From NCBI GenBank assembly GCA_949286115.1, contig CASEBK010000035.1, forward strand, positions 25,119 through 89,118: a stretch of DNA of 64,000 nt. Direction: 5' to 3'. Below are positions 51,651 to 56,863 of the stretch, one piece after another (within the stretch, counting starts at the first letter, position 1; each line of letters begins with the position of its first letter). Below the pieces are notes generated by a model. The model had not been told where the DNA came from, did not search any database, and worked only from the letters and a program-made list of their open reading frames with translations. Made by a program: the position numbers and the translations under genes. The stretch comes from an uncultured Veillonellaceae bacterium. GTDB lineage: Bacteria; Bacillota; Negativicutes; Veillonellales; Dialisteraceae.

Positions 51651-51679
51651 ACTATAGAGGAAAACACCGCCTCTGTCAA
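51651..51679 (-). promoter_or_regulatory. Strong promoter of thrS
   Basis: Perfect TTGACA (51674-51679), 17-nt spacer, TATAGT (51651-51656). The -35 overlaps the stop codon of the ABC exporter gene. Confidence 0.75.
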
Positions 51680-53409
51680 GAGAAATTTTTCTCTCCGCCC
51701 GTGCGCTGCGCCTCGTAGAGCTGAAAATATTTTCCCCGTTTCGCCAGAAGTTCTTCGTGCGTGCCATCTTCCGCGATGCGCCCCCGGTCGAGCACGATGA
51801 TGCGGTCCGCGTGGCGCACTGTAGAGAGGCGATGCGCGATGAGGATCGTCGTCCGGTCTTTCGAAAGAGCGGCGAGCGTCTCCTGGATCTGCTCCTCCGT
51901 CTTCGTATCGAGCGCCGCCGTGGCCTCGTCCCATATGAGGATGGGCGGGTCCTTCAGAAAGACCCGGGCGATGGCGATGCGCTGCTTCTGCCCGCCGGAG
52001 AGCTTCACGCCCCGCTCGCCCACTTCCGTCGCATAGCCTTTAGGAAGCGCCCGAATGAATCCGTCCGCGGCGGCCATGCGCGCCGCCTGTTCGATCTCTT
52101 CCTCCGAAGCGTCATCCCTTCCGTAGCCGATATTTTCCGCCACGGAATCGGAGAAGAGAAAAACGTCCTGCTGAACGATGCCCACTGCCCGTCGAAGCGC
52201 CTTCTGAGACACGTCCCGCAAGTTCGTGCCGCCCAGCGTGATGCGCCCCTTCGTGGGATCATAGAAACGAAGGAGCAGGCTCACGAGCGTGCTCTTCCCC
52301 GCACCAGTCTCTCCCACGAAAGCGGTGGTCTTCCCCGCCTCGATGGTGAAGGTCAGGTCCCGCAGAATGGGACGGGCCGGATCGTAGCCGAAGGTCAGGT
52401 GATCGAAGACGATGTCTCCGCCGCGGGCCTGCACGGGAAGCGGATGCGCCGGGTCTGTCACCGAAGGGCGGACCGCCATGATCTCTTCGAAGCGATGAAG
52501 CCCCGCCATGCCCCGCTGATACACTTCCGCCAGAATGGTGAGGCGGAAGACCGGCTTCATGAAGATGTTCACATAAAGCAGAAACGCCACGAAATCCGCA
52601 AAAGCAAGCGTCCCGTCGGCGATCATGAGACCCCCGGCAAGGAGCACCGACACATAGATGAAATTGGTGAAAAGATTGATCCCCGCGGAAAAGGTCGCCA
52701 CCAGCCGATAGGAATCGCACCGCGTTCGCCGGAGCTCGTCGCTCTTCTCGCTGAACCTGTCAAGCTCATACTCTTCCCTGGCAAAAGCCTTCGTGAGGCG
52801 CACCCCGGAGAGGCTCTCTTCCACGCGGGCGCTCACCTCGCCCATCTTCGCCCGATTTCGCCGGAAGGCCGCTTTCATCCGGCGGTTCGTATGCACCGTC
52901 TGCACGGCCTTCACGATGAGGAGCGCCCCCACGAGCAGCGCCAGCTGCCAGTTCATGGCCAGCATGATAAGAAGCGTCCCTGCCATCGTCACCGCGCAGA
53001 TGAAGAAATCATTCGGTCCGCGGAAGGAGAGCTCGCTCACCTCTGTGATATCGCTGGTGATGCGCGACAGGAGCTGTCCCACTTTTTCATTGTCGAAATA
53101 GGAAAAGGACTGCCCCTCGATGTGGGCGAACAGATCGCGGCGCATGTCGTGCTCGATGCCCGCGCTCATCACGTGGCCGTAATAGGACACGGCATACTGG
53201 ATGAGGAAATTACACGCGTACAGCGCCAGGAGCGCCGCCGCGCCGACATAGAGCGCCTCCATATCGCCTGCGGGCAGCACCCGTGCGATGAGATCCCGCA
53301 CCACCACCGGAAAGATAAGGTCCAGCGCAGACGCAGCGAACGTTCCGAAGATGACTCCCGCAAGGAGCCCTTTGTAATTGCGGTAATACCGAAGCCAGTG
53401 TCCGATCAT
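51676..53409 (-). CDS. ABC exporter, fused membrane and ATPase domains
   Basis: A 577-residue half-transporter of the MsbA/multidrug exporter type. Six membrane segments lie in about 1-310; the ATPase has Walker A GETGAGKST near 368, signature LSGGQKQR near 470, Walker B ILIWDEATAALD near 490 (Trp and Ala replace the usual Leu and Ser; the catalytic Glu is present), and H-loop AHRLST. It starts 14 nt after the NifK-like stop with its own AAGGAGGCG, so it is cotranscribed with the nitrogenase-like genes; it may export their product or be a passenger. The ATG at 53409 is preferred over an upstream start. Confidence 0.88.
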   Translation of the reverse strand: MIGHWLRYYRNYKGLLAGVIFGTFAASALDLIFPVVVRDLIARVLPAGDMEALYVGAAALLALYACNFLIQYAVSYYGHVMSAGIEHDMRRDLFAHIEGQSFSYFDNEKVGQLLSRITSDITEVSELSFRGPNDFFICAVTMAGTLLIMLAMNWQLALLVGALLIVKAVQTVHTNRRMKAAFRRNRAKMGEVSARVEESLSGVRLTKAFAREEYELDRFSEKSDELRRTRCDSYRLVATFSAGINLFTNFIYVSVLLAGGLMIADGTLAFADFVAFLLYVNIFMKPVFRLTILAEVYQRGMAGLHRFEEIMAVRPSVTDPAHPLPVQARGGDIVFDHLTFGYDPARPILRDLTFTIEAGKTTAFVGETGAGKSTLVSLLLRFYDPTKGRITLGGTNLRDVSQKALRRAVGIVQQDVFLFSDSVAENIGYGRDDASEEEIEQAARMAAADGFIRALPKGYATEVGERGVKLSGGQKQRIAIARVFLKDPPILIWDEATAALDTKTEEQIQETLAALSKDRTTILIAHRLSTVRHADRIIVLDRGRIAEDGTHEELLAKRGKYFQLYEAQRTGGEKNFS

Positions 53410-53423
53410 AATCGCCTCCTTCC

Positions 53424-55998: not shown

Positions 55999-56800
55999 AC
56001 TTCGTCACCAGCGCTTCCAGCTCATCAAACGTGACCGGCGTGGGTACCGTGAGCTCCGTGTTGTCCCAGATGGCCGCCGCGAGCTTCCGGTAGACCTCTG
56101 CCTGTGCCGACTCCGGCGCGTATTGAAGCACTGTCTGCCGGTGGTTCTCCGCCAGATTGACGATCCGATCTCTCGGGATGAATGCGATGAGCCGCGTATG
56201 GAGCCGTTCTGCAAATTCCGCGAGGAGCTCTTTCTCTCCCGGCGTGTTCCGGCTGTTTCCGATGAGCCCTGCCAGGCGCACTTTACCCCTTGCGGCGAAG
56301 CGCCTCACCCCTTTGGCGATGTTGTTCGCCGCATAGAGCGACATGAGCTCTCCCGACGACACGATGTAGATATCCGTAGCATAGCCCTCGCGGATCGGCA
56401 TAGCGAAGCCGCCGCACACCACATCGCCCAGCACATCGTAGAGCGTGAGGTCCGCTTCGGGGAGCGCCTTCATGCGGTCCAGCAGCTGCAGCGCCACGAT
56501 GATGCCCCGACCGGCACAGCCCACGCCCGGCTCCGGTCCGCCCGCCTCCACGCAGGTGATGCCGTTCCATCCGGTATGGACGATGTCTTCTGCACGGATA
56601 TCTTCCGGCTCTGACGTGCGCACCTTATCGAGCACCGTCTCCCGGCAGATATGTCCCAGGAGCAGGCGCGTGGAATCATTCTTCGGGTCGCACCCGATCT
56701 GGCACACTTTCTTCCCCACAAGAGAGAGCGCCGCCGACACGTTCGACGCGGTGGTGGATTTTCCAATTCCGCCTTTTCCATAAAATGCGATCTTTTTCAT
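55982..56800 (-). CDS. NifH/BchL-like iron protein ATPase
   Basis: A 272-residue reductase that feeds electrons, with ATP hydrolysis, to its component 1 partner. Walker A GKGGIGKST at 8-16, CDPKNDSTRLLL at 37-48 (switch region), cluster ligands C95 in GVGCAGRG (with R98, the ADP-ribosylation site in NifH) and C129 in VVCGGFAMP. All residues for the shared 4Fe-4S cluster are present. GAGGAAC precedes the ATG. First gene of the cluster; it is the electron donor for the two component 1-like genes downstream. Confidence 0.88.
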   Translation of the reverse strand: MKKIAFYGKGGIGKSTTASNVSAALSLVGKKVCQIGCDPKNDSTRLLLGHICRETVLDKVRTSEPEDIRAEDIVHTGWNGITCVEAGGPEPGVGCAGRGIIVALQLLDRMKALPEADLTLYDVLGDVVCGGFAMPIREGYATDIYIVSSGELMSLYAANNIAKGVRRFAARGKVRLAGLIGNSRNTPGEKELLAEFAERLHTRLIAFIPRDRIVNLAENHRQTVLQYAPESAQAEVYRKLAAAIWDNTELTVPTPVTFDELEALVTKYGTED

Positions 56801-56857
56801 AGTTCCTCTTTTCCGGGCCGCCCCATACGGCCGCTTTTGGTCCTCCGGCCTTCCTGT

Positions 56858-56863
56858 ATTGTA
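56858..56863 (-). promoter_or_regulatory. Possible -10 of the nitrogenase-like operon
   Basis: TACAAT 57 nt before the NifH-like ATG; -35 weak. The leader contains the GC-rich inverted repeat GGCCG-N7-CGGCC near the ribosome site. Confidence 0.35.

Follow-up and report, generated by a model that had tools for sequence, protein, structure and literature searches.

A nitrogenase-like gene trio of the Negativicutes linked to vitamin B12 metabolism, a candidate corrinoid reductase

Introduction

Nitrogenase-like enzymes are an already known kind, and those of known role serve chlorophyll, F430, methionine and isethionate metabolism (PMC11423573; this and the other PMC sources are cited from excerpts). 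Here we describe three overlapping genes for NifH-, NifD- and NifK-like proteins (the trio) in a 64-kb stretch of DNA from an uncultured Veillonellaceae bacterium, likely a member of the Dialister family (contig CASEBK010000035.1; the whole stretch is called the window), together with their relatives in other genomes. A preliminary description of the window had judged the set to be probably not a nitrogenase and had left its substrate unknown. The first judgment stands, given the missing cofactor ligands, the lack of nifB, nifE and nifN matches in the genome and the separate clades reported below. The second can be narrowed, as the relatives link the family to corrinoid metabolism.

Among the closest described systems, dark-operative protochlorophyllide oxidoreductase (DPOR, BchLNB) and CfbCD have only simple clusters and tetrapyrrole sites and reduce tetrapyrrole rings without a large cofactor (PMC12552129). 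CfbCD has no NifK homolog (PMC11423573). Methylthio-alkane reductase (MarHDK) has Cys270 as a cofactor ligand, and the second cluster ligand of MarD is His429 on a Mar-specific loop (PMC12552129). Isethionate reductase (IsrBHDK) is, like the trio, a NifHDK-like set without ligands for the iron-molybdenum (FeMo) cofactor; IsrD keeps one of three P-cluster-type cysteines (PMC11423573). Corrinoid operon-2 of Dehalobacter restrictus resembles loci described here in its riboswitch, FepBCD-type importer, CbiZ, CobN and Mg-chelatase subunits, and the paper that describes it never uses the word nitrogenase. The literature searched yielded no nitrogenase-like family linked to B12; the excerpts of PMC3464626 and PMC8597730 make no mention of Dialister or Veillonella, and that of PMC8597730 names Negativicutes once.

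Results

The trio lies on the minus strand of the window, as follows.

55982..56800 (-): NifH-like Fe protein, 272 amino acids; Walker A motif GKGGIGKS at 8; cluster cysteines C95 and C129
54706..55998 (-): NifD-like catalytic subunit, 430 amino acids; C17, C42 and C111; without FeMo-cofactor Cys or His
53424..54713 (-): NifK-like catalytic subunit, 429 amino acids; C16, C41 and C100

The NifH- and NifD-like genes overlap by 17 nt and the NifD- and NifK-like genes by 8 nt, and an exporter gene follows after 14 nt, in agreement with the preliminary description. The cysteines that it listed and the IGDD motif (at 116 in the NifD-like and 105 in the NifK-like protein) were also found as claimed, and the cysteines are kept across the family alignment. 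The NifH-like protein matches Pfam Fer4_NifH (PF00142) at 1.9e-109, with 365.8 bits vs a gathering threshold of 25. Both other proteins match Oxidored_nitro (PF00148, threshold 28.6), the NifD-like one at 2.2e-52 (178.7 bits) and the NifK-like one at 7.8e-54 (183.5 bits); for the NifK-like protein and the exporter, the Pfam scan used longer upstream starts than those of the coordinates given here. An AlphaFold2 model of the NifD-like protein has a predicted local distance difference test score (pLDDT) of 86. The trio is a genuine gene set and not a chance set of open reading frames (ORFs), because a NifD relative with 28-83% identity is present at 62 genome loci.

These 62 loci came from a scan of one genome per species for NifD relatives. 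Most are in Negativicutes (Dialister, Succiniclasticum, Phascolarctobacterium, Selenomonas, Sporomusa, Pelosinus, Veillonella ratti and others); beyond the class, relatives were found in Pelotomaculum and in one metagenome-assembled genome titled Acholeplasmataceae. Matches to all three proteins are present in 49 of the loci. The other 13 show no NifH match, and six of these are short, broken or in Pelosinus. A NifD/K-like pair without a NifH match was seen in L006, L013, L014, L018, L019, L022 and L032, in stretches of 13-17 kb, and the Succiniclasticum genome Red_deer_1_mag_73 carries two copies of the set (L012 and L025).

The neighbours of these relatives point to corrinoids. Ten gene families were counted by the number of loci, out of 62, with a homolog in the examined stretch: CobN 34, BtuF 32, FecCD 31, TonB receptor 25, ChlD 22, CbiZ 19, radical S-adenosylmethionine (SAM) proteins 19, ChlI 18, CbiK 7 and BtuR 6. 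At least one of CobN, CbiZ, BtuR and CbiK is present in 41 loci, the window and its sister locus L005 not being among them. The CobN of L021, the one compared with solved structures, is nearest to cobaltochelatase.

Of 28 loci submitted to Rfam, 13 have a cobalamin riboswitch (RF00174) at the gathering threshold; eight of the 28 had been picked because they were flagged by a model derived from the initial hits. This model itself matched in 14 of the 62 loci; neither search gave a match in the window. The distance from the riboswitch end to the nifH-like start downstream of it is 122-242 nt in six loci (L033, L038, L039, L042, L054 and L060) and about 960 nt in L062. A CbiK gene stands between riboswitch and nifH in L036 and L040, and a tetratricopeptide repeat (TPR)-type gene in L053. 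In L059 the riboswitch lies behind NifK, and in L065 before a second K-like gene. Two Pelosinus loci (L045 and L048) have the riboswitch, then CbiK, then nifD, with no nifH in the locus; their NifD- and NifK-like proteins perhaps share a NifH encoded elsewhere. In both, another riboswitch precedes a second K-like gene. In two Schwartzia loci, a ZMP/ZTP riboswitch (RF01750) was seen directly behind NifK (L036 10656-10736 and L040 10646-10726).

Co-occurrence was examined in 250 genomes of the Negativicutes, evenly drawn and at least 90% complete. The family was called with a profile (A1) at a best E-value of at most 4.9e-68, the next best genome having 7.1e-49. By this measure the family is present in 62 of the 250 genomes, CobN in 90 and both in 57. 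CobN thus occurs in 57 of the 62 family genomes vs 33 of the 188 others and, counted by genus, in 24 of 26 family genera vs 12 of 60 others. In 42 of the 57 genomes with both, the two lie within 20 kb on one contig. The five family genomes without a CobN match are the window's own genome (G000), G030, G178, G217 and G184, the last being the genome of L005 and of the same genus as the window's.

Cluster ligands were compared in an alignment with NifD/K/E/N (Rhizobium and two genomes of the class), VnfDKEN (Nostoc), MarDK (Chlorohelix, whose MarD scores 475 bits on the solved MarD), and BchNB and BchYZ (Roseobacter), excluding rows that contain internal stops or have at most 400 residues. The three P-cluster positions are kept in all 59 NifD-like rows (C17, C42, C111) and all 56 NifK-like rows (C16, C41, C100), and C95 and C129 are both present in all 44 aligned NifH-like rows. 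At the FeMo-cofactor cysteine column, none of the 59 NifD-like rows has Cys (G 46, N 9, S 3, T 1), and where nitrogenase has its cofactor His, all 59 rows are gapped, this segment being missing from the family. The earlier observation that the NifD-like protein lacks both residues therefore holds throughout the aligned family. The best PDB match of the NifD-like protein by sequence is MarD (94.6 bits), yet the equivalent of MarD Cys270 is not a cysteine, being Ala233 in the PDB-match alignment or Gly228 in the family alignment. The NifK-like protein is closest in fold to BchB, and its Cys41 stands in all 56 rows at the position of BchB Asp36, the fourth cluster ligand of DPOR.

Equivalog tests with NCBIfam models and their cut-offs placed the trio in none of the families tested. 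The NifH-like protein misses the cut-offs of nifH (388.1 vs 394.35), CfbC (366.4 vs 402), BchL (228.3 vs 345.15) and BchX (185 vs 331.2), and the NifD-like protein misses that of CfbD (45.1 vs 268.4). Scores for BchN (45.1 vs 419.95), BchB (81.6 vs 490.35) and BchZ (39.9 vs 529) are also under cut-off. A phylogeny places the NifD- and NifK-like proteins each in a clade of its own at support 100, apart from the reference Nif, Vnf, Mar and Bch rows, in a set without CfbD, Isr or Nfa rows; the NifK-like clade joins BchB/BchZ at 87. In the NifH tree, the Nif rows form a separate group (100/98).

Compared with the known systems, the trio is thus not a member of DPOR or of chlorophyllide oxidoreductase (COR, BchXYZ), which have a chlorophyll context, whereas the context of the trio family is corrinoid. 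It shares with CfbCD the likeness to a nitrogenase-like tetrapyrrole reductase, but it has a NifK-like subunit. With MarHDK it shares the six P-cluster cysteines, but it falls in another clade, and its genome gave no match to a NifB-type maturase, as judged with TIGR01290 and no Mar-specific model. In contrast to IsrD, the NifD-like proteins keep all three cysteines in every aligned row.

The window's genome comprises 1.86 Mb in 49 contigs and is estimated to be 90.4% complete, a limit that applies to each absence given here. The lack of nifB, nifE and nifN reported for the window extends to this genome, in which no TIGR01290 match was found and the only PF00148 genes are those of the trio. 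It has one full-length NifH and two more short PF00142 matches (27.2 and 20.2 bits). A search for tetrapyrrole genes, also suggested earlier, showed that the genome encodes B12-synthesis genes away from the trio: CbiL, CobB/CbiA and BtuR on contig C31 and CbiD and CbiJ on contig C20 score above NCBIfam cut-offs. CbiG, a FecCD permease, a binding protein and a CbiK-like protein on C20 match only under cut-off, and CbiE/T, F, H, C, ExbB/D and TonB are assignments made by eye on the translations. There are two BtuR-type genes and six TP-methylase matches, one of which is by eye an rRNA methylase. At L111 3280-4365 (-) of this genome, a CbiK-like chelatase gene with an apparent signal peptide by eye adjoins importer-like genes.

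The order of genes on the minus strand, from ORF calls, is secD, secF, NifH-like, NifD-like, NifK-like, ABC exporter, thrS. The features around the trio are listed here; the names secD, secF and thrS are our presumptive assignments.

51676..53409 (-): MsbA-type ABC half-exporter, 577 amino acids; ABC_membrane (PF00664) and ABC_tran (PF00005) domains; synteny neighbour, judged outside the system
53410..53423 (-): gap of 14 nt between NifK-like stop and exporter start; at the same place G152 has BtuF-CobN-radical SAM-ChlI-ChlD
56940..59119 (-): secF and secD (presumed names); upstream border of the island
49451..51562 (-): thrS (presumed name); downstream border
51431..51643 (-): T-box leader RF00230, 99.7 bits, in front of thrS

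The preliminary description had grouped the exporter with the cluster, an association that is not supported. The exporter is not a partner of the trio, because G190, of the same genus and without the trio, keeps secDF-exporter-thrS, and because G152, of the same family, has five genes between NifK and exporter (secD-secF-NifHDK-BtuF-CobN-radical SAM-ChlI-ChlD-exporter). The ortholog is also present in two same-family genomes without the trio, G182 and G196. Across nine relatives (two congeners and seven others from the same family), orthologs of 64-83% identity were found in six, three with the trio and three without; the other three have only matches of 34-36%. Among the relatives' 62 loci, the exporter stands directly behind NifK only in L005, which shares the order secDF-NifHDK-exporter-thrS with the window. 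Further, secDF borders the trio in L005 and L007/L135 and borders the exporter in L139. We infer as the simplest history that secF and the exporter once flanked a corrinoid island and that the window's genus lost the chelatase half of it, which would have brought the exporter to within 14 nt of NifK; that this was a loss and not a stepwise gain is likewise our interpretation.

The first start of the thrS ORF overlaps the T-box leader, so the true start would be further in. L005 also has a thrS T-box leader, at 12458-12668. Very long frames at 43984-46572 and elsewhere in the window run antisense to likely genes, for example opposite what we take to be a leuS-like ORF, and are probably shadows of high GC content.

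Discussion

Based on these observations, we propose that the trio encodes a nitrogenase-like two-component corrinoid reductase, which by analogy would most likely reduce Co(II) to Co(I), with removal of the axial ligand, before adenosylation by BtuR (rough probability 0.45). The B12 link of the family is well supported, and the substrate is likely a corrinoid or a close tetrapyrrole; the exact step is inferred, and the assignment to the cobalt atom itself, by analogy, is tentative. By analogy with known members, the NifH-like dimer would dock on D2K2, and ATP-driven low-potential electrons would pass via the interface cluster to a substrate in the place that the cofactor takes in nitrogenase and the pigment in DPOR. 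The genome gave no match to nifB, by which a carbide cofactor could be built. As in DPOR and CfbCD, a tetrapyrrole would fill this cavity. The neighbours and riboswitches of the relatives suggest that this tetrapyrrole is a corrinoid, and the adenosyltransferase might then take over the reduced product. In the window's genus, where the CobN part is absent, the trio may serve the B12 genes on other contigs. Reduction of Co(II) to Co(I) in corrinoids needs a very low potential. This step is favoured because of that potential and because it would suit B12 makers and scavengers alike, would account for the BtuR and CbiZ neighbours and would be useful without CobN too.

Several observations weigh against this proposal. 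None of the ten neighbour families occurs in 17 of the 62 loci, several of them short stretches, and these 17 include L005, a Dialister sp. locus (L016) and the Succiniclasticum group. The case for the Co(I) step leans on BtuR as well as on analogy, and BtuR is near the trio in only six loci. No riboswitch match was obtained with our model in 48 of the 62 loci, and the 64-kb window has no cobalamin riboswitch by Rfam or by that model; the genome's one such riboswitch is on contig C1, away from the trio. (It precedes a 383-amino acid ORF, L071 12435-13586 (-), which by eye contains a signal-peptide-like stretch and has no NCBIfam match.) CobN gave no match in the window's genome, and 33 of the 90 CobN genomes in the class sample lack the family. 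The tree of NifD- and NifK-like proteins is quick, with few references and long branches.

The trio could instead reduce a C=C bond of a corrinoid or precursor ring, like DPOR, COR and CfbCD. The fold of the NifK-like protein and its position in the tree fit such a role, as does its E217, common to BchB and BchZ and not found in the NifK, NifN and MarK rows; moreover, one Roseobacter plasmid carries BchHID and BchLNB, a pairing similar to that of CobN-ChlI-ChlD with the nitrogenase-like set here. We nevertheless regard ring reduction as rather unlikely, because the window's genome has its own precorrin-6A reductase, CbiJ, which already covers what we take to be the ring reduction of the corrinoid pathway. 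The residue aligned with BchB Asp274, presumably the catalytic Asp, is Q, K, R, E or S in the 56 rows, in a weak alignment, and the family also occurs in salvage-type loci with BtuF and CbiZ. The trio might also donate electrons to the CobN-ChlI-ChlD chelatase, so that cobalt is inserted into corrin or removed from it reductively. Such a role would account for the frequent company of CobN within 20 kb, and iron removal from heme is the activity of HmuS, a relative of CobN (PMC12583661). It is the less probable for the five family genomes without a CobN match, two of them in the window's genus, and for the CobN genomes without the trio; we consider it unlikely.

Acquisition of iron from heme or porphyrin is suggested by the TonB receptor, FecCD and periplasmic binding proteins among the neighbours, by binding-protein matches that include heme IsdE (under cut-off) and by the membership of HmuS in the CobN family. 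However, the CobN tested is nearest to cobaltochelatase and not to HmuS, and the neighbours include cobalamin riboswitches, CbiZ, CbiK and BtuR, which makes this account improbable. Still more so is a reductase acting on C-S bonds of organosulfur compounds, in the manner of methylthio-alkane or isethionate reductase. The MarD match and the six P-cluster cysteines speak for it; against it stand the missing Cys270 equivalent, the absence of a nifB match in the genome, the position outside the Mar rows and the difference from IsrD in cysteines, and the one radical SAM neighbour tested best matches peptide maturases, all under cut-off. A true nitrogenase with unusual cofactor anchoring is almost certainly not encoded: the NifH-like score comes close to the nifH cut-off, but the 59 rows lack cofactor Cys and His, the clades are separate, and nifB, NifE and NifN gave no match in the genome.

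If the corrinoid reductase is real, nitrogenase architecture would serve the vitamin B12 branch of tetrapyrrole metabolism too, and the trio would work beside CobN-ChlI-ChlD as BchLNB works beside BchHID in chlorophyll synthesis. It would then be a new class, an ATP-dependent corrinoid reductase making Co(I) or reducing the corrin for coenzyme B12 supply across the Negativicutes, for which we see slightly less than an even chance. A family tied to B12 would add corrinoids to the roles of nitrogenase-like enzymes and offer a candidate for low-potential corrinoid reduction in anaerobes. The family is common, being present in about a quarter of the class sample (62 of 250) and in protein clusters of thousands of members (P0029 with 4,332, and P0075 with 3,515, labelled Dialister invisus by one source). 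Its genes could be miscounted as nif genes in metagenomes, a problem described for nifH (PMC8597730). Behind the Sporomusa ovata trio (L042 11519-14311) we also observed ferredoxin-type, 2-hydroxyglutaryl-CoA dehydratase D-component-like and BcrAD/BadFG ATPase genes, a set that represents another type of ATP-driven electron activator.

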